Positions 29,160 to 47,195 of a stretch of DNA of 49,491 nucleotides are shown here, one piece after another. Made by a program: the position numbers and the translations under genes. A model generated the notes under the pieces. That model saw nothing but the letters and a program-made list of their open reading frames with translations. It searched no databases and was not told the origin of the DNA. This stretch comes from a virus. The DNA lies in the IMG/VR virus record IMGVR_UViG_3300010375_000023, positions 1-49,491 of that record; one strand, written 5' to 3'. Each line of letters starts with the position of its first letter. Position 1 is the stretch's first letter.

Positions 29160-29738
29160 ATGGTATACCATCAAGGGACGTTCATAGGGTTCACTGGAGC
29201 TGGTGGTACCGGAAAGACTACTACTGCTAAGGCTCTCCTAGAATGCCTCCCAAAGTACTCGTTTCTCCCTTCAGCTTCCAGAGAGGTCTTCAAACGATTC
29301 AAGCTAGAGAAGGAGAGCGATCAGGATGGTATGTCAGAGATCCTCAGGTGGAAGCTGCAGCAGGAGATCCAGATAGCTCACAGAGCTACCCAGATCGAGA
29401 ACTACAATAGGCTGATGATCTGTGATAGGACGCAGCTCGATCAGTACTGCTATGCCACCATCCAGTGCTCTAAAGTCCTACAACCCGACGACCTGGAGTT
29501 CCTTGATACCCTACTTAGGGACAGCCTCCCTCAGTACAGGAGGATCTTCTACTTCCCCTTACACACCTACGCGCCTCTAGATGATGGTATGAGAGACGAT
29601 CGGGAAGGTCTCAGAGTTCACTTTGACCTACTGCTCAGAGGACTATTTGAGAAGTACAGAGTCTTCCCTGTAACTGTTCCTATAGGCTCTGTTGAGAAGC
29701 GTTGTGACTTCATACTCAGGCACATCTCTCACAAGTAA
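29160..29738 (+). CDS. P-loop nucleotide/nucleoside kinase (AAA_28-like)
   Basis: The 192-residue protein begins with the P-loop FTGAGGTGKTTTAKALL (about 11-27). A lid and substrate-binding region with MICDRTQLDQYCYATI (Asp-Arg pair about 96-97) follows, as in deoxynucleoside kinases and NadR-type AAA_28 kinases. The C-terminal part (REGLRVHFDLLLRGLFEKY) is helical. In phages such enzymes supply nucleotides for replication. The exact substrate cannot be told. It is the last gene before the promoter at 29790. Confidence 0.82.
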   Translation: MVYHQGTFIGFTGAGGTGKTTTAKALLECLPKYSFLPSASREVFKRFKLEKESDQDGMSEILRWKLQQEIQIAHRATQIENYNRLMICDRTQLDQYCYATIQCSKVLQPDDLEFLDTLLRDSLPQYRRIFYFPLHTYAPLDDGMRDDREGLRVHFDLLLRGLFEKYRVFPVTVPIGSVEKRCDFILRHISHK

Positions 29739-37851: not shown

Positions 37852-38092
37852 CAATCTCCAAACTACCTCAGGCCCAAGCTTAGTCGCGGAGCGAGCAGCC
37901 ATACTTAGGCTGCTCGCCACGCGCGGGTGGATCTCTTTGAAGCAGTTCAGTACCCTGATAGGAGTATCTTACCCTACGGCCTTACGGATGAACGGCTCTA
38001 AGCAAGTCCACACTGTACGAGTAGGTTGGACTCACAGAGTGTCCATCGAGGAATACAATAGGTTCATGCGCGAAGGGAACAGAAAACTGTGA
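37832..38092 (+). CDS. Small HTH protein (excisionase-like)
   Basis: GTG at 37832 with GGAG upstream gives 86 residues; a longer frame in the DUF669 gene has no support. The core (about 35-80) is a MerR/excisionase-type helix-turn-helix: WISLKQFSTLIGVSYPTALR, then a wing and RVSIEEYNRFM. With no integrase in view, it is more likely a regulator than an excisionase. Its stop overlaps the queC start (GTGA). Confidence 0.75.
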   Translation: MDSLGSDNLQTTSGPSLVAERAAILRLLATRGWISLKQFSTLIGVSYPTALRMNGSKQVHTVRVGWTHRVSIEEYNRFMREGNRKL

Positions 38093-38814
38093 CAGACACA
38101 CTGCTTGAAACATCGACTGTTCGTAGGCATTTCGTACTGCACTCCGGAGGGCTTGATAGCTCTACAGCTCTGTTGATGTGCTGCGATCAGAACCCTGACG
38201 ATCAAGTGATTGCAGTGTCAGTCCATTATGGACAGCGACACAAGAGGGAGATCGAGCTCTCGAAGGCTCTGTGCTCCTCCCGCAGTATTCGCCACCTGAC
38301 AGTCGATATGGCCCAACCTCCAAAGTCTATGCTAACGGATCCCTCGAAGAGGGTTCCGGAGATAAGCTATAGTGACATCACAGGGATGTCTCCTACTTAC
38401 GTCCCATTCCGTAATGGCCAGCTACTCTCTCGCATTGCAGGCATTGCTCAAGGCTGGGTAATGGAGGGAGACATCCAAGATCCTGCTACTCGCGAGGCTA
38501 CTATCTGGTTCGGAGCCCACGCGGAGGATGCCCACAATTGGGCATACCCTGATTGTACTCCGGAGTTTGTCGGAGCGATGGCCAACGCCATCTACATCGG
38601 TACGTACCATCGAGTCCGACTGATCACTCCTTTCTTATTCTGGAAGAAGTCTAGCATTGTCCTTGAAGGTGAAGTCCTTGGACTCCCATTCGAACTCACC
38701 TGGAGCTGCTACAAAGGGGAGGAAAAGCAATGCGGTGTCTGCATGACTTGCCAGGCTCGCAAGGGAGCTTTCAGGGATGCTGCCATCCTAGATCCCACTG
38801 AATACGCTCGCTGA
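38089..38814 (+). CDS. queC: 7-cyano-7-deazaguanine (preQ0) synthase QueC
   Basis: This ATP-dependent enzyme turns CDG into preQ0. The 241 residues have the PP-loop HSGGLDSST (about 18-26), SVHYGQRH (about 43-50) and four C-terminal cysteines (about 207, 215, 218, 221) that hold zinc. The start GTG overlaps the previous stop. QueD, QueE and FolE follow, so the set from GTP to preQ0 is complete. No amidotransferase domain or QueF is present. Confidence 0.93.
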   Translation: MTDTLLETSTVRRHFVLHSGGLDSSTALLMCCDQNPDDQVIAVSVHYGQRHKREIELSKALCSSRSIRHLTVDMAQPPKSMLTDPSKRVPEISYSDITGMSPTYVPFRNGQLLSRIAGIAQGWVMEGDIQDPATREATIWFGAHAEDAHNWAYPDCTPEFVGAMANAIYIGTYHRVRLITPFLFWKKSSIVLEGEVLGLPFELTWSCYKGEEKQCGVCMTCQARKGAFRDAAILDPTEYAR

Positions 38815-38829
38815 AAGGGAAAACTCTCT

Positions 38830-39396
38830 ATGCCTTATAGCATCACCAGAGAGATCGGCATCGACATGGCACATAGAGTGCCTACGCATGGGAGTAAATG
38901 CTGGAACCTTCATGGACATCGTTACAAGATCCTCGCAACTGCTCAGTCGAGTACACTGCACGAGGGCGGAGTCCAACAGGATATGGTGTTGGACTTCTCC
39001 TTCCTTCACTCCGTGATGATGGCTCAGATCCATGACTTCTGTGATCATGGCCTTACGATATGGAAGGATGATCCTTGGCTCCCAAGCTTCTTCCTTCATC
39101 CTCCCAACAATGAATACTTCGGAAACACTTACAAGGAGCTCCTTGAGGCAGACGGATACTACTACGTCCCATCAGACCGAAACCACCAGCAGACTCAGCT
39201 CCTGATCGTAAACTTCATCCCTACGGCTGAGAAGCTTGCAGAGTTCTGGTTCAAGAGGATGACTCCGGGAGTCAATCTACTGTCCAACAAGAAGGCTCAC
39301 CTCTCCAGGATTGAGGTGTTTGAGACACCTAACTGCTCTGCTGTCTATCCTGCCGTACTATCCAGCTTACCTCTCTCCACTCACGAGGGTGCCTAG
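38830..39396 (+). CDS. queD: 6-carboxytetrahydropterin synthase QueD
   Basis: The enzyme makes 6-carboxy-5,6,7,8-tetrahydropterin from dihydroneopterin triphosphate. The 188 residues contain zinc histidines His15, His28 and His30 (HRVPTHGSKCWNLHGHRYK) with catalytic Cys24, an acid-base pair FCDHGL, and a final EVFETPNCSAVY motif. An insert of about 35 residues (FLHPPNNEYFGNTYKELLEA) makes it longer than the bacterial norm (about 120). GAAAGGG is upstream. Confidence 0.9.
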   Translation: MPYSITREIGIDMAHRVPTHGSKCWNLHGHRYKILATAQSSTLHEGGVQQDMVLDFSFLHSVMMAQIHDFCDHGLTIWKDDPWLPSFFLHPPNNEYFGNTYKELLEADGYYYVPSDRNHQQTQLLIVNFIPTAEKLAEFWFKRMTPGVNLLSNKKAHLSRIEVFETPNCSAVYPAVLSSLPLSTHEGA

Positions 39397-39398
39397 CA

Positions 39399-40151
39399 AT
39401 GGTTGAGAAGCTTCCCGTCATAGAGCTGTTTGGTCCTACATTGCAAGGAGAGGGAGCTCTGTGCGGGAAGACCTCCTACTTCATCCGGTTCGGAGGATGC
39501 ACCTACAGATGTAAGTGGTGTGACTCTATGCATGCTGTTGATCCTGAACAGATCAGCAAGAATGCCACCCGTATGGATGAGGCAGACATCGCCAAGAAGA
39601 TCACAGGTCTAGGAGGTCCCAACAGAGCCGTATGGGTTACCTTAAGTGGTGGAGATCCCTGCATCTATGACCTAAGAGGCCTAGTGCTAAAGCTTGCTGC
39701 ATCAGGTATGCGAGTAGCCGTGGAGACTCAGGGAGCCTTCTATAAGCCTTGGCTACAGTACTGCCAGGCAGTAACCTGTTCTCCTAAGGCTCCTTCTTCT
39801 GGAATGTCAGAAAAGACAGACCTCAAAGTCCTCAAGGAGTATGTAGGCCAGCTTGGAGGTATTTATATACCCACAGGAGGAAAGGTCCTAAACTTCAAGG
39901 TTGTCGTCTTCGACGAAGAAGACCTCCTCTTTGCAGCTGAGATCCACAAGAAGTTCAAGAGCATCCCGTTCTACCTGTCTGTGGGGACTACAGCTCTCAA
40001 CAGACCCGAGAGCCCTGAGGAAGTCACCACTGGCATCATGGAGAGGTTCAGATGGCTGAGTGCAGAAGCTCTCGCCTCTCCGGTATTCGCTGATGCTACA
40101 GTCCTTCCACAGATGCACGCAATGTTGTGGGGTCACCAACGAGGCGTCTAG
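39399..40151 (+). CDS. queE: 7-carboxy-7-deazaguanine synthase QueE
   Basis: This radical SAM enzyme forms CDG from QueD's product. The 250 residues start with SAM-binding CTYRCKWC (Cys34, 38, 41; CxxxCxxC). The substrate signature FGPTLQGEGALCGK (about 11-24) precedes it, and LSGGDPC follows at about 83-89. The C-terminus carries LPQMHAMLWGHQRG. Length is typical. GAGGGTGCC is the ribosome site. It is coupled to queD by a 2-bp gap. Confidence 0.92.
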   Translation: MVEKLPVIELFGPTLQGEGALCGKTSYFIRFGGCTYRCKWCDSMHAVDPEQISKNATRMDEADIAKKITGLGGPNRAVWVTLSGGDPCIYDLRGLVLKLAASGMRVAVETQGAFYKPWLQYCQAVTCSPKAPSSGMSEKTDLKVLKEYVGQLGGIYIPTGGKVLNFKVVVFDEEDLLFAAEIHKKFKSIPFYLSVGTTALNRPESPEEVTTGIMERFRWLSAEALASPVFADATVLPQMHAMLWGHQRGV

Positions 40152-40164
40152 GACACAAATTCCT

Positions 40165-40860
40165 ATGGTAACTGTTAGCTGGAGCAACCCAATGGACCAC
40201 TTCGAACATCCCTCACTCCCTCCCCTGGAGAAGGCTAAGCCTAGAGAAGTGCTGATGGATGTTCTTGCACACGCCAAGCTGAAGCCACATACAGCAGAGG
40301 CGTACGCAGCTGACCACCTCAGTAACGCTATCCATCTGATCTTCCCGGATGCTACAGAGCAACTTCAGAGACTCACTCCGGGTCGATTTATTCGCTACCT
40401 CGCAGAATTCAATAAGCCCTATCGTCCTCAGGACATCCTCGGAGACCTGTTCGACGGTCCGAATGCCGAAGGGATTCATGGTCTCATCATTCAGAACGGT
40501 ATCCCTTTCCGGATGGTATGTGAGCACCATCTGCTGCCTGCGATTGGAAGGTGCCACTTAGGATATGTTCCTAATGGGCATGTAGTAGGCCTCTCCAAGC
40601 TCGCACGCCTTGTGGATGCAGTTGGGACTTCTCGCCCGGGAATGCAGGAGCTTTTCTGCGAAGAAATCGCCAATACACTTGAGACGTACATCAAGCCGAA
40701 GGGAGTGATGTGTGTCATCAGTTCCATCCACAGCTGTATGGCTTGTAGAGGTGTGAACGTACCAGACGTGTCAACGACTACGAGTTGCATCCGTGGAATC
40801 TTCAGGGATGTAGCCTCTGCCCGTGAGGAGTTCCTAGCCCTCATTACTGCCTTCAGATAG
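40165..40860 (+). CDS. folE: GTP cyclohydrolase I
   Basis: This enzyme makes dihydroneopterin triphosphate, the first intermediate. From the ATG at 40165 there are 231 residues, with zinc Cys and His in MVCEHHLLP (about 117-124) and SIHSCMACRGV (about 187-197). An ATG nine codons on (40192) has a better ribosome site (GGAG, seven bases) and is an equally possible start. The protein is of type IA length. Confidence 0.9.
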   Translation: MVTVSWSNPMDHFEHPSLPPLEKAKPREVLMDVLAHAKLKPHTAEAYAADHLSNAIHLIFPDATEQLQRLTPGRFIRYLAEFNKPYRPQDILGDLFDGPNAEGIHGLIIQNGIPFRMVCEHHLLPAIGRCHLGYVPNGHVVGLSKLARLVDAVGTSRPGMQELFCEEIANTLETYIKPKGVMCVISSIHSCMACRGVNVPDVSTTTSCIRGIFRDVASAREEFLALITAFR

Positions 40861-40873
40861 GTCATCCCATGTT

Positions 40874-41152
40874 ATGGTAACCATGATGATAGTAGGGCCT
40901 CACGAGATCCTACGGTTCGACTACACCAATTACCGTATGGAGCACTCGTGTCGAACCGTCATGGCTATCAGCGTGTGGCAAGGTAGTACTGAATGGCATC
41001 CGGAAGAGCAGTGGTTCCTCAGAGCGAAGGACATCACAGGCAACGCCTCAGACGGGAAGATACGTGACTTCGCGATGAGGGATATCAAGAACGTGAAAGG
41101 AATGTCTGACAGATGGGACAATTTGCACCAGTTTGCCCACCTCAGATCCTGA
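40874..41152 (+). CDS. WYL-like small protein
   Basis: The 92-residue protein has the pattern DYTNYRMEHSCRTVMAISVW then GSTEWHPEEQWFLRAKDIT, seen in small WYL-like domains of phages, which may sense nucleotides or nucleic acids. It overlaps the start of the next gene by 40 bp, so the two are likely coupled. Its role beside a deazaguanine cluster is unknown. The start may be the ATG at 40874 or the tandem ATGs at 40883. Confidence 0.7.
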   Translation: MVTMMIVGPHEILRFDYTNYRMEHSCRTVMAISVWQGSTEWHPEEQWFLRAKDITGNASDGKIRDFAMRDIKNVKGMSDRWDNLHQFAHLRS

Positions 41153-41892
41153 AAGCCTTAAGGGCTTATGGAGATCAGATAGTAGGAAAGTATCACCTCC
41201 TACTGGCACACGATGTAGCGGCTAAGCCACATGAGTACAAGGATCTTCTACCTGAGAAGTCCCTCATCATCATGGACAACAGCATTATCGAGATGGGATA
41301 CCCTGTACCTCTGGACGTCATGCAGGAGGCCTTAAGAATCGTTCCCTCTCAGATAGTAGTCCTTCCGGATGTCATCAAGAACCGTTCTCTTACACTTGAT
41401 CTGAGCTTCCAGGCAGCTGAGGACTACTCCCACATCATGGACTTCAACCTCAGCTCCTTCATGTGTGTCCCACAAGGAGAATCCCTCGAAGAGCTGATGG
41501 ACTGTGCTATCCAAATGAGGCACCTCGAGAACGTAGGTGCTTGGGGCATTGGCAGATTCGTCACAGAGATGCTAGGCAGCCGTAAGGATCTTGTCGAGTG
41601 GATCTGGAATACGCCAGAACTCCACCTTCCCTACCGGCGTCATGGGCCTTTCATTCACCTCCTAGGCTTCTCGGAGAACATGGAGGACGACATGCTGTGT
41701 GCCAGACTTCCTGGAGTAATGGGGATTGACTCGGCTGTCCCGGTGCGTATGGGACAGAACAGACAAGTCATGCAGAGGACTCAGAGAGCACACTCTCCCA
41801 GAGGTGACTGGTGGGATACTGCGGTCCCTTTCATCTATCCAGAAACACTTGCGAACCTTTCGCTTGTCCGTAACTGGATCAACTTCAAATAG
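41113..41892 (+). CDS. dpdA: DpdA-like tRNA-guanine transglycosylase paralogue, DNA base exchange
   Basis: TGT-family enzymes exchange guanine for a deazaguanine; DpdA versions do this in DNA. The 259-residue protein has LIIMDNSIIEMGYPV (about 50-65), VVLPDVIKN (about 84-92), FMCVPQGES, WGIGRFVTEM, HLLGFSENMEDDM and GIDSAVPVRMGQN (about 210-222). The two Asp residues in MDNSIIE and GIDSAVP would be the nucleophile and acid-base residues. The alignment is by memory. AAAGGAATG lies upstream. Together with QueC-QueD-QueE-FolE it indicates preQ0 in DNA. Confidence 0.78.
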   Translation: MGQFAPVCPPQILKALRAYGDQIVGKYHLLLAHDVAAKPHEYKDLLPEKSLIIMDNSIIEMGYPVPLDVMQEALRIVPSQIVVLPDVIKNRSLTLDLSFQAAEDYSHIMDFNLSSFMCVPQGESLEELMDCAIQMRHLENVGAWGIGRFVTEMLGSRKDLVEWIWNTPELHLPYRRHGPFIHLLGFSENMEDDMLCARLPGVMGIDSAVPVRMGQNRQVMQRTQRAHSPRGDWWDTAVPFIYPETLANLSLVRNWINFK

Positions 41893-41902
41893 GCAACACC
41901 TT

Positions 41903-42322
41903 ATGCTGCACACACAGGAAGTAGACGTCCTAGCTCGTACCTTATGGGGCGAAGCTAGAGGAGAAGGCACTCGAGGGATGGCTGCTGTTGCGTGTGTCAT
42001 CGTGAACAGGGCATCTCATCCTAGTTGGTGGGGTAACTCTATTGAGGCCTGCTGTAAGGCTCCTAACCAATTCTCCTGTTGGCTCCCGAACGATGCCAAT
42101 CTGAAGAAGCTGATGGACGTCACTGACGAAGACGACGCCTTCTACACAGCACTCATAGTGGCCTCTCTCGCCGTGCTCAAGCAGATACCTGATCTCACCA
42201 ATGGAGCTGACAGCTACTATGCTCCTAGTTACTTCCACTATCCGCCTTACTGGACTAAAGGAGAAACGCCCACAGCAATCATCGGTCACCACAAGTTCTA
42301 CAAACTTCGCAAAGGAGCGTAA
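41903..42322 (+). CDS. Endolysin, SleB-like cell-wall hydrolase
   Basis: The ATG at 41903 gives 139 residues; earlier frames overlap dpdA. The catalytic Glu is in LARTLWGEARGEGTRGMAAV (about 10-29), followed by VIVNRASHPSWWG, KAPNQFSCW and a C-terminal half with NGADSYYAPSYFHYPPYW. This is the Hydrolase_2/SleB pattern of muramidase-like lytic enzymes, common among phages of alphaproteobacteria. No signal peptide is visible, so it needs a holin. The holin candidate is at 42847. Confidence 0.87.
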   Translation: MLHTQEVDVLARTLWGEARGEGTRGMAAVACVIVNRASHPSWWGNSIEACCKAPNQFSCWLPNDANLKKLMDVTDEDDAFYTALIVASLAVLKQIPDLTNGADSYYAPSYFHYPPYWTKGETPTAIIGHHKFYKLRKGA

Positions 42323-42326
42323 CAAC

Positions 42327-42575
42327 ATGCCCAACATGTCTGACAAGTCAGAGAAGATCGACAGCACGTCCGATCGGCGGACAGAGAACAACGTGATGCG
42401 TCATGAATATCGGATCCTCCAAGACTGGGAGAAGAAGAACATGCAACTCATCAAGGATCTTGGGAAGGAGTTCTTCGATGAAGTCAATAGTCTAGGAGAG
42501 TCCAGAGAGCTCTTACTTGCCAAGACCAAGATTGAGGAAGCGGTGATGTGGGCGGTGAAGCATATCACCAAGTGA
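42327..42575 (+). CDS. acb2: Acb2/Tad1-family anti-defence sponge protein
   Basis: AAAGGAG lies before the ATG at 42327. The 82-residue protein matches the hairpin-domain family of Acb2 and Tad1, with IDSTSDRRTENNVMRHEYRI near the start and AKTKIEEAVMWAVKHITK at the end. Acb2 hexamers bind cyclic oligonucleotides made by CBASS (and Thoeris) and hide them from effectors. The sequence match is from memory and strong in the C-terminal helix. It lies between endolysin and a Tad2-like gene, so both are made at about the same time. Confidence 0.85.
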   Translation: MPNMSDKSEKIDSTSDRRTENNVMRHEYRILQDWEKKNMQLIKDLGKEFFDEVNSLGESRELLLAKTKIEEAVMWAVKHITK

Positions 42576-42611
42576 GCAGTCTCTAGGGCAACTCAGCAGG
42601 AGAACATCGCA

Positions 42612-42842
42612 ATGCAAATTCACGACATTGGCTGGGCCGTAAAGCAGATGTGGAACGGTGACCGCGTACGCCGTACCGGCTGGAACGGCAAAGGAATGTA
42701 CCTCGAACTGCAACAACCTGACGCCCAAAGCAAGATGACTCTCCCCTACGTCTACATGAAGACGGCGGATGAACACCTGGTTCCTTGGTTGTGCTCGCAA
42801 ATGGATCTCCTAGCTGTTGACTGGGAGGCCGTCGACGCGTAG
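42612..42842 (+). CDS. tad2: Tad2-family Thoeris anti-defence protein (DUF2829)
   Basis: CAGGAG lies upstream. The 76-residue protein has DIGWAVKQMWNGDRVRRTGW then NGKGMYLELQQ and VYMKTADEHLVPWLCSQMDL then LAVDWE. This is the DUF2829 signature (R-x-G-W-N-G-K-G-M ... M-K-T-A-D ... P-W-L-x-S-Q-x-D-x-L-A-x-D-W). Tad2 tetramers bind gcADPR signals of Thoeris and some bind CBASS dinucleotides. Its place beside the Acb2-like gene makes a two-protein signal sponge module. Confidence 0.88.
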   Translation: MQIHDIGWAVKQMWNGDRVRRTGWNGKGMYLELQQPDAQSKMTLPYVYMKTADEHLVPWLCSQMDLLAVDWEAVDA

Positions 42843-43756: not shown

Positions 43757-44056
43757 ATGCGAAGACCCAAACGGAAGCTCCCAGATTGCATCTGCGCACT
43801 CCCAGAATGTCAAAGGCCCTTCGTAGGATATCCAGGAGGGCTCAATCGTTTCTGCTCGCTCTACTGCATGTCCATTGGGAGGGAGAGGCCTTACCACAAA
43901 GAGCTGACTGTGGTTAGCGTACACGCAATGCGGATGGATGGGATCTCAGCAAGAGTGATTGCGGAGGAGCTAGGATTAGTCTCCAGGAATGCTGTGTACG
44001 GCATAGCATTCAGAAAGCACCTCCCAAAGTCAGCACGAAAGATCAGGAGCGTATGA
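43757..44056 (+). CDS. Zinc-finger plus HTH protein
   Basis: AGGAGGAAG precedes the ATG. The 99-residue protein has a Cys-x4-Cys motif (CALPEC, about 13-18) and FCSLYC at about 32-37, a zinc ribbon. A helix-turn-helix (HAMRMDGISARVIAEELGLV, then SRNAVYGIAFRKHL) follows. It resembles GcrA-type or transposase-linked DNA-binding proteins. Its stop overlaps the polymerase start by 4 bp. A regulator of the polymerase operon is plausible. Confidence 0.78.
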   Translation: MRRPKRKLPDCICALPECQRPFVGYPGGLNRFCSLYCMSIGRERPYHKELTVVSVHAMRMDGISARVIAEELGLVSRNAVYGIAFRKHLPKSARKIRSV

Positions 44057-46737
44057 AGCTAGCAGGACCATCCTACGAATATGCTACAGAGCTCCCTTCA
44101 TGTGCTCTCTGCCCTTATGGAGGACCTCGAGTGGGGAGCAGAGGCAATCCTCAAGCTAAGGTTGTGTTCATCGGGGAGGCTCCTGGCGCTCAGGAGTTGA
44201 CTCACGGGATCCCATTGGTGGGTCCATCAGGTGAAGTGTTCTGGAGGACATTGCCTCCAGATGCGCCGTTGGACGACATACTGATCCTTAACGCTTGCCA
44301 GTGCTTGCCACCGAGATCGAAGGACACTGCGAAGAACACTGCTGCTGTTGCCAGAGGAGCTCAAGCATGTCATGCAAGGCTCATGATGCAGGTAGAGGAG
44401 TTCCCAAGGTCCTTGATTGTGGCGATGGGGAATCATGCATTACGTTCATTAACCTTGAACAATTCTTGGAAGATCACCCAGATTCGGGGACAATTATTAC
44501 AGTACGCTGGTTCGGCGATTGGGCTATTACCTATATTGCACCCAGCAGCTTTGTTGAGGGGTACAGGGAACTACAGACAGTTCCGAGAGGACATCCTCTA
44601 TGCGTTCGATTTACTGCGTGGGATCCCGAGGAGGTCCCCAGTCACCCCTAGGTACTTCGTAGCACGCCATAAGTACCATGTGGCACAGATTTGTAACTCG
44701 TTGATATCTAAGACGTATATCGCGTTAGATACTGAGACAGGAGGATTCAATCACCTCACTGATGAAATCCTTGCTGTTGGCCTGTGTGCTGATGCTGATT
44801 TGGTATATATTGTGCCAGGTGATCTCACCAGATACCTCAAACCCCTCTTCAGTAACGGTGATCTTTCTGGGCCTAAGTTCATATGGCACAACGGCAAGTT
44901 CGATATGCGCTTCATGCGTAGGCCCGATGCAGTAGGAGAGGCGGCTAGATGTGATGAAGACACCATGCTGCTTAGCTACACTCTGGATGAACAGGGAGGC
45001 ATACACGACCTTGAGCAGGTTGGAAATGACCTTATTGGAGCGCCTGACTATAAACACATGCTCAAGCCTTACCTGCCCAATAAGAAGACTAGTTACCGTG
45101 CTATCCCAAAGCCCATCCTGTATCGATACCTAGCACTGGACACCTCAAACACAAGACAGATCTTTGACGTTCTGCGCCCTCGTGTTAGCTCCGACGCCAA
45201 GCTGGAGAAGTGCTACACACGAGTCCTAATGGCAGCTAGCGAGTTCCTCTATAGGGTAGAGCAACAAGGTATAATGGTATGCCCTAACAGAGTGAAGCAT
45301 CAGGCTAAAGTCCTTCAGCAAGGCATTGATGATTCGAACAGTCGTCTTCAAAATGCCGCAGTTAAGGCTGGATCGAACGTTGAGATCAATCCTAACTCCC
45401 CGCAGCAGCTTGCGGTTCTACTCTTCGACAGGCTCCGGCTGAAGAGTCCAAAGGCTGGAGAGAGATCGACAGCTAAGGGCATTCTTGAAAAGCTGCCTAA
45501 GCACCCTGTGGTTGAGGCTATCAGTGATTACCGGAAGGCCAAGAAGGCGAAGAGTACCTATGTTGACTCCCTCGTCAAGAACGTCAACATCGATGGGAGA
45601 GTTCATGCGACATACCTCATCCACGGAACTAGAAGTGGACGCCTTTCAAGCCGCGGACCTAATATGCAAAATATTCCTCGTGGGACTGCTATTCGGTCTA
45701 TGTACATGGCTGCTCCGCATCACGTATTCATTAAGGCAGATCTTAACCAAGCAGAGCTGAGATCTCTTGCAGTTCTATCAGGAGACGATTACCTCCTAGA
45801 GGTCTATGCACCAGGTTCTAAACGAAAGCTCCACTGGGAGACTGCTGCAGACTTCTATCCAGGATGGGAGAGACTAGATCCTAAGCAAGGTGTTGGATTA
45901 GATCAGCTGATGAGAGCCAAGGCAGTGAACTTCGGTATTGTATACGGCCGCCAAGCGCCTTCTCTTGCAGCCGAGTTCAGTATCCCAGTACTAGAAGCAC
46001 AGAGATGGATTAACAAGTGGAGGGATCGTTCTCCCAAAGCGTGGGACTTCATCGAGAAGTGTCGACAGGCTCCCATCCAAGGATATAATCTGGTAACATT
46101 GTTTGGAAGGAAGAAGAGACACTGGCTGGTAACACAGGAGAACCTGATAGGGCTACAGAATGAGGCAGCTAACTTCCCTCACCAGTCTATAGCACATGAC
46201 ATCTGCTTGCTGGGTGGTGCGAAGGCAGAACCTATTCTAAGGCCCTTCGGAGTACACCCTGTGAATGAGGTGCATGATGAGATCATGTTCGAATGCCCAG
46301 ACATCCCGGAGCTGATTGCGTATGCAAAGTACGTGATCATAAGGTGTATGGAGTCTATAGCTCCTGAGTGGGGGCTTACCAGAATACCCTTCATAGCTGA
46401 GGCAGATGTGGGGAGGAGATGGAATATCTACCGCAATCCGAAATTGAAGGAGTTCCGATATGAATACTCCCCTGATGACTCAGACAGATGGTGGGAGCCT
46501 AATAGTTCCGTCAGAGCTGCCTATCTACAGACAGAGACAGATCCCAATACGCATAAGGACTCAAGCATATTGGGCAGTAAGCAGGGGATGGAGACATCCA
46601 GAGTCCTCTGGGATAAGACTGGACTTGGCTATGAGCCTGATACAGACGGGACTGATGGGGACGAATCCGACCTCCAACAGGGTCTTGTATGGGGCCCTCC
46701 TCCTTCTTCGCAACCAGATCACCGAGACTATGAATAG
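44053..46737 (+). CDS. Uracil-DNA glycosylase fused to DNA polymerase I
   Basis: The 894-residue protein starts with a family 4/5 uracil-DNA glycosylase: Cys pair SCALC (17, 20), GEAPGAQE (about 41-48), ACQC (82-84) and LHPAALLRG (about 162-170). A 3'-5' exonuclease (DTETGG with Asp226 and Glu228; HNGKFDMRF with Asp284; YLALDT) and a PolA palm follow. Motif A is ADLNQAELR (Asp563), motif B RAKAVNFGIVYG (Lys623) and motif C VHDEIMFE (Asp742). Here Asn-Gln replaces the usual Tyr-Ser in motif A. About 80 acidic residues follow motif C. The enzyme could remove uracil as it copies, or its UDG part may instead be structural. Confidence 0.93.
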   Translation: MKLAGPSYEYATELPSCALCPYGGPRVGSRGNPQAKVVFIGEAPGAQELTHGIPLVGPSGEVFWRTLPPDAPLDDILILNACQCLPPRSKDTAKNTAAVARGAQACHARLMMQVEEFPRSLIVAMGNHALRSLTLNNSWKITQIRGQLLQYAGSAIGLLPILHPAALLRGTGNYRQFREDILYAFDLLRGIPRRSPVTPRYFVARHKYHVAQICNSLISKTYIALDTETGGFNHLTDEILAVGLCADADLVYIVPGDLTRYLKPLFSNGDLSGPKFIWHNGKFDMRFMRRPDAVGEAARCDEDTMLLSYTLDEQGGIHDLEQVGNDLIGAPDYKHMLKPYLPNKKTSYRAIPKPILYRYLALDTSNTRQIFDVLRPRVSSDAKLEKCYTRVLMAASEFLYRVEQQGIMVCPNRVKHQAKVLQQGIDDSNSRLQNAAVKAGSNVEINPNSPQQLAVLLFDRLRLKSPKAGERSTAKGILEKLPKHPVVEAISDYRKAKKAKSTYVDSLVKNVNIDGRVHATYLIHGTRSGRLSSRGPNMQNIPRGTAIRSMYMAAPHHVFIKADLNQAELRSLAVLSGDDYLLEVYAPGSKRKLHWETAADFYPGWERLDPKQGVGLDQLMRAKAVNFGIVYGRQAPSLAAEFSIPVLEAQRWINKWRDRSPKAWDFIEKCRQAPIQGYNLVTLFGRKKRHWLVTQENLIGLQNEAANFPHQSIAHDICLLGGAKAEPILRPFGVHPVNEVHDEIMFECPDIPELIAYAKYVIIRCMESIAPEWGLTRIPFIAEADVGRRWNIYRNPKLKEFRYEYSPDDSDRWWEPNSSVRAAYLQTETDPNTHKDSSILGSKQGMETSRVLWDKTGLGYEPDTDGTDGDESDLQQGLVWGPPPSSQPDHRDYE

Positions 46738-46751
46738 GAGCTAGACAGACA

Positions 46752-47195
46752 ATGGAAGTATACTCGGTACTCACCCGTGAGGATGCCCAGACACACGTCA
46801 GGAGCATAGCGTTTGAGAATGACTCTGCCGCAGCACCTGTTAGGATCCAGAAGCTATGTCTGCAGTGCCACTCACTCGCAAACTCCATGGGCTGGTGGGT
46901 CAATCCATCGACAGGAGAAGCTATCTGGCGTAACTTCGGGGAGATGATAGCCCTCATCCATAGTGAGCTGTCAGAGGCCCTTGAAGGAGCTCGAAAGAAC
47001 CTCCCCAGCGATCACATTGAGGGCTTCAGCATGGTCGAGGAAGAGCTTGCTGATGCTCTCATCCGCATCTTCGATCTTGCCGGAGCGATGGACCTTAATC
47101 TAGGAGAGGCCTTCCAAAGGAAGATGGAATACAACCAACATCGGGAGGATCACAAGCTCCACAATCGTTCTCAGGAGGGCGGTAAGAAGTTCTAA
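46752..47195 (+). CDS. MazG-like NTP pyrophosphohydrolase
   Basis: The 147-residue protein has the all-alpha pattern with metal-binding acids: GEMIALIHSELSEALEGARK (Glu72, Glu75) and VEEELADALIRIFDL (Glu98, Asp101). MazG-like enzymes cleave NTPs, dUTP-like nucleotides or alarmones. AGGAGC precedes the ATG. It is the last gene of the rightward block. Any transcript would run into the convergent leftward gene at 47223. Confidence 0.82.
   Translation: MEVYSVLTREDAQTHVRSIAFENDSAAAPVRIQKLCLQCHSLANSMGWWVNPSTGEAIWRNFGEMIALIHSELSEALEGARKNLPSDHIEGFSMVEEELADALIRIFDLAGAMDLNLGEAFQRKMEYNQHREDHKLHNRSQEGGKKF

Follow-up and report, generated by a model that had tools for sequence, protein, structure and literature searches.

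The DNA analysed here, referred to below as the window, comprises all 49,491 bases of one virus contig. It lacks a terminal repeat, and since its nearest relatives measure 59-70 kb, it is probably incomplete, a fragment of a larger genome. Its plus strand carries four consecutive and complete genes for the synthesis of preQ0 (QueC, QueD, QueE and FolE), together with a candidate DNA-guanine transglycosylase and the further genes listed here with their profile matches.

29160..29738, + strand: candidate P-loop nucleotide kinase (phrog_2107 'thymidylate kinase', 2.5e-21; phmmer to the CP220-type neighbour kinase, 6.1e-9)
38089..38814, + strand: QueC, 7-cyano-7-deazaguanine (preQ0) synthase (Pfam QueC, 2.8e-46; PHROG QueC-like, 2.6e-47)
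38830..39396, + strand: QueD, 6-carboxytetrahydropterin synthase (Pfam PTPS, 2e-25; PHROG QueD-like, 2.2e-28)
39399..40151, + strand: QueE (phrog_2076 QueE-like, 4.6e-36 across the full length; CxxxCxxC)
40165..40860, + strand: FolE, GTP cyclohydrolase I (Pfam GTP_cyclohydroI, 1.3e-43; PHROG, 2.1e-42)
40874..41152, + strand: 92-aa ORF (phrog_3715, 1.3e-17)
41113..41892, + strand: candidate divergent DNA-guanine transglycosylase (DpdA-type), 259 aa (fold, active-site residues, alignments)
42201-42842, + strand: Acb2/Tad1-hairpin protein, then Tad2-like protein (9.6e-17; 2.5e-22)
44053..46737, + strand: family A DNA polymerase (Pfam DNA_pol_A, 4.3e-67; N-terminal UDG-like domain, UDG 8.1e-22; 3'-5' exonuclease, 8.2e-9)
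46752-47195, + strand: MazG-like pyrophosphohydrolase, 3' of the polymerase (phrog_5658, 9.9e-49)

The positions of the four synthesis genes and their intact, consecutive arrangement, proposed in an earlier sequence-only reading of this DNA, are borne out by the Pfam and PHROG matches and by the retention of their metal, ATP or [4Fe-4S] motifs. QueC, a protein of 241 aa in which a fused amidotransferase domain is absent, has the SGGLDS loop and the zinc motif C-x8-C-x2-C-x2-C; QueD keeps its catalytic Cys and HGH, and FolE the zinc motifs CEHH and HSCMAC. QueC begins with a GTG that gives a 4-nt overlap with the stop of the preceding ORF, and the FolE frame is open from a GTG at 40060, with an ATG at 40165 that comes after the QueE stop. 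The same reading had the TGT-like gene follow these four. That gene is present and conserved, with its MDNSIIE and GIDSAVP motifs, but the 92-aa ORF intervenes, lying between the two and overlapping the start of the TGT-like gene. Homologues of this small ORF occur in 285 phage records, L001 has one at another place, and it is probably not specific to the pathway.

Some further observations concern the window at large. An ORF at 41726-42322 (+) that encodes a Hydrolase_2 cell-wall hydrolase domain (4e-17) overlaps the end of the transglycosylase gene, and its true start probably lies further downstream. At 43757-44056 (+), a short protein gives a weak GcrA match (9.7e-5, below the cut-off), a hint of an alphaproteobacterial host that agrees with the presence of Brevundimonas phages among the relatives. 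A megablast comparison of the downstream 19.5 kb of the window with known phages returned no match. Rfam and tRNA scans of the window found nothing, and hence no preQ1 riboswitch; its local repeats were at chance level, and its restriction-palindrome counts gave no clear signal.

Fold and active site of the candidate transglycosylase

The TGT-like protein of the window has no Pfam match of its own. Its AlphaFold (AF2) model (pLDDT 93.5, pTM 0.91) adopts a TGT-type (beta/alpha)8 barrel, and the best 50 PDB matches to this model are all tRNA-guanine transglycosylases (best E 1.6e-7; TMq 0.53-0.69). Searches of viral contigs confirmed 234 relatives, of which 80 were retained, and 40 homologues were aligned. 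Across this alignment, in which identity falls as low as 18-27%, nine positions are invariant (D55, N56, E60, D86, G122, H182, L183, G185 and D206), and Q121 is kept in at least 90% of the sequences. Because D55-N56 and D206 belong to the invariant set, MDNSIIE and GIDSAVP are conserved motifs and not chance resemblances; the earlier proposal would have fallen with the loss of both catalytic Asp residues, and neither of the two has been lost.

Profile alignment with E. coli Tgt (hhalign, E 0.0011) sets GIDSAVPVR opposite MFDCVMPTR, so that D206 falls at the position of the E. coli nucleophile, D264. D55 corresponds to the second catalytic Asp by motif order, as it does in a weak alignment with the CAjan enzyme. 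The best PDB sequence match, itself weak (E 0.0041), is the Salmonella DNA-guanine transglycosylase 7ui4, with the HLLG and IDS..P motifs in register, and PADLOC DpdA models match 4 of the 40 family members (best 2.3e-6). Net charge, taken as a sign of DNA binding, does not differ between families. The window protein combines the features that mark the TGT superfamily, namely the barrel, the two catalytic Asp residues and the base-binding Asp and Gln-Gly. The restriction of the 50 best PDB matches to TGT enzymes, the invariance of the Asp residues and the alignment of D206 with D264 make it a candidate DNA-guanine transglycosylase of the DpdA type.

A separate viral family and its gene neighbourhood

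Profile comparisons place the window enzyme in a separate viral family, which is neither that of CAjan and Dp-1 (DpdA1-type) nor that of nt-1 (DpdA2). The family profile gave an E of at least 10 against the DpdA proteins of CAjan and Dp-1 (DpdA1 type, 9g/CAjan/Dp-1) and, against the 464-aa DpdA2 of nt-1, an E of 0.089 at Z = 1000 and of 180 at Z = 1e6; single-sequence hhalign comparisons with the CAjan, Dp-1 and nt-1 enzymes were not significant. In a tree the family falls into two halves. Profiles built from the window's half detect gp056 of Campylobacter phage CP220, a Firehammervirus (NC_027997 54675-55451; L003, L067), with an E of 1.4e-13, and profiles of the CP220 clade detect the window protein with an E of 7e-10 (both at Z = 1e6). 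The CP220 protein is annotated 'Hypothetical protein', and a relative in Flavobacterium phage immuto, 44% identical to it, has been deposited as 'DNA guanine transglycosylase, DpdA'; both share the active-site motifs of the window enzyme. The fold of the CP220 clade alone is a TIM barrel that has TGT at rank 2, the other barrels being unrelated. The TGT identity of this clade is thus drawn from the profile matches, its own fold match being weaker than that of the window enzyme. Campylobacter phages had been grouped in 2019 with phages that have preQ0 genes but no DpdA (PMC6884629), and 100% replacement of dG by dADG is reported for CP220 and CPt10 (PMC8306585). Since the family profiles miss the members of DpdA1 and DpdA2, it is the fold, the genomic context and the deposited annotation that point to DNA as the probable substrate. 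A DpdA3 subfamily that permits complete guanine replacement was reportedly described by Cui et al. in 2023; the window family is probably this published DpdA3, with the membership of CP220 serving as a lead only.

The family co-occurs with QueC in most records, which provides a genomic link to preQ0 synthesis in phages. The usual order in relatives is QueC-QueD-QueE-FolE-transglycosylase-PolA, in which PolA comes straight after the transglycosylase, although this link is not universal, because the polymerase of CP220 belongs to family B. The Brevundimonas phages vB_BpoS-StAshley and MaInes resemble the window in carrying QueC-QueD-QueE, the same transglycosylase (33%) and the DNA polymerase in order, and StAshley likewise lacks QueF and ArcS. 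In these phages, however, FolE lies ~8 kb away, after a ribonucleotide reductase, and the enzyme is annotated as hypothetical. The CAjan DpdA and the dPreQ0 group of Hutinet et al. 2019 (PMC6884629) are alike in bringing together FolE, QueD, QueE, QueC, a TGT-fold enzyme and a DNA polymerase, in the absence of an amidotransferase and in the small size of the enzyme. In CAjan, DpdA stands between the FolE and polymerase genes, a design also seen in the window, yet the gene order is otherwise different and the two transglycosylase families show no detectable relationship in sequence. As opposed to the window, phages of the CP220 type have dispersed preQ0 genes or possess QueF, a formyltransferase and a kinase, and CP220 DNA is reported with dADG, not dPreQ0.

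Two additional features of these neighbourhoods can be mentioned. A PurN-like formyltransferase (PF00551 in the member tested) is located directly 3' of the transglycosylase, usually together with a kinase and QueF, in loci L053, L058, L060, L062, L065, L066, L069, L071, L077, L080 and L084-L086; in seven PurN-like loci a small protein beside QueC, with no Pfam match, resembles by eye a class-II glutamine amidotransferase. In the window itself, the Acb2/Tad1-hairpin and Tad2-like proteins encoded between the transglycosylase and the polymerase are candidate anti-CBASS and anti-Thoeris sponges. A sponge module acting alongside the modification had been predicted here; the genes are real and lie 0.3-0.7 kb downstream, but their cooperation with the modification would be only additive, because the sponges would target signalling by cyclic nucleotides (CBASS, Thoeris) and not restriction.

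The predicted base and the proposed route to it

The 7-deazaguanine module at this locus is real, intact and coherent; it represents a system type already known, with a divergent transglycosylase. We estimate at about 70% the probability that the cluster works as a module for modifying the phage's DNA, in which preQ0 is made and then swapped for guanine in phage DNA. FolE, QueD, QueE and QueC would convert GTP into the free base preQ0, and the TGT-like enzyme would exchange it for guanine in phage DNA through a transglycosylase mechanism, in which D206 would attack C1' and release guanine, D55 would be the second catalytic Asp, and the base would be held by D86 and Q121-G122. Without QueF, ArcS or an amidotransferase, the product would be 2'-deoxy-preQ0, which would be expected to block many restriction enzymes whose recognition sites contain G.

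The lack of QueF, ArcS and an amidotransferase fusion in the window, already suggested from the sequence, was upheld by profile searches. No QueF match exceeded the cut-off in the window, nor in the other records on its side of the tree, among them the complete StAshley genome of 69.9 kb; the same search was positive in Dp-1 and in CP220-like records, and within the family QueF is confined to those members of the other half that resemble CP220. Over the same range, StAshley included, the ArcS domain was likewise not detected above the cut-off, nt-1 being its only positive, and no class-II amidotransferase (GATase_6) was detected. Absence of ArcS, QueF(-L) and Gat-QueC thus characterizes both the contig, probably fragmentary, and the window's half of the family, as far as the profiles for QueF, ArcS and GATase_6 show. 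Because this 49.5-kb contig is a fragment that lacks end repeats, the case against QueF draws mainly on the nearest relatives and StAshley. Weak QueF matches (E 1e-4 to 1e-8) in FolE-bearing records were read as FolE, a T-fold relative, and those in records W02 and W03, narrowly past the cut-off, fall within annotated FolE genes.

The set of FolE, QueD, QueE, QueC and DpdA leads to dPreQ0 in CAjan (~32% of G) and Rosebush (~28%) (PMC6884629). Given this precedent, and since no QueF, ArcS or amidotransferase was found, dPreQ0 is the best prediction for the DNA of the window phage. A different final base (dPreQ1, dADG, dG+ or another), formed either by enzymes of the host or by phage genes outside the contig, seems unlikely, but it retains some weight. 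A later enzyme could be missing from a fragment without end repeats, preQ1 could come from a host QueF, and other family members have QueF, a PurN-like formyltransferase or a candidate split class-II amidotransferase; gene content also mispredicted the base of Salmonella phage 7-11, which has only dADG (PMC6884629). Nonetheless, the tested profiles gave no hit anywhere in the window's half, StAshley again included, and CAjan DNA contains only dPreQ0 and no dPreQ1, even though its E. coli host makes preQ1. As to the extent of replacement, the membership of the enzyme in the same family as that of CP220 suggests that it may be extensive or complete, far above the levels of Rosebush and CAjan, and not limited to some guanines.

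The kinship with CP220 bears also on where the exchange takes place. Guanine might be swapped for the 7-deazaguanine on a deoxynucleotide (dGMP or dGTP), with a kinase restoring the triphosphate and the polymerase inserting it, so that replacement would be complete. The complete replacement reported for CP220 would be accounted for in this way, and a modified-dGTP path has been suggested for Campylobacter phages (PMC6884629). About 20 CP220-type loci have a P-loop kinase adjoining or near the transglycosylase, and 4 Bacillus-type loci have an unrelated kinase adjoining it; the window encodes a member of the CP220-type kinase family, as do the four large relatives closest to it, and the MazG-like gene after the window polymerase has strong matches in five further records from the same half of the family. 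Kinase and MazG genes are, however, common in phages, and for this reason we deem exchange on the deoxynucleotide improbable. Besides, the window kinase lies 12 kb away, several family clades lack the CP220-type kinase, and the link to PolA does not extend to CP220, with its family B polymerase. We know of no characterised TGT or DpdA enzyme that does not act on nucleic acid, and Cui et al. are said to have concluded in 2023 that insertion is post-replicative. It is, finally, very improbable that the cluster serves to raise host queuosine, or that the TGT-like protein modifies tRNA rather than DNA. Hutinet et al. put this forward for phages with preQ0 genes but without DpdA (PMC6884629), whereas the window phage has a transglycosylase of its own, which lacks a Pfam TGT match, has ~115 fewer residues than E. 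coli Tgt, belongs to a virus-specific family (one weak relative in genome contigs) and is linked to a DNA polymerase.

Exchange of guanine for bases of the preQ0 type is a known disguise of phage DNA against bacterial DNA-cutting defences. As a DNA-modification module, the cluster would extend 7-deazaguanine modification to a little-studied phage lineage, and it ties the 'hypothetical' transglycosylase of this lineage to a protein of Campylobacter phages that were listed in 2019 as lacking DpdA and are reported to replace 100% of their guanine. If the window phage swaps all of its guanine for preQ0, it would exceed the dPreQ0 levels given in PMC6884629, 28-32% of G, and exchange at the level of the nucleotide or of the DNA would become directly testable. 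Should the exchange take place on the deoxynucleotide, this would be, to our knowledge, the first TGT to act on a mononucleotide.
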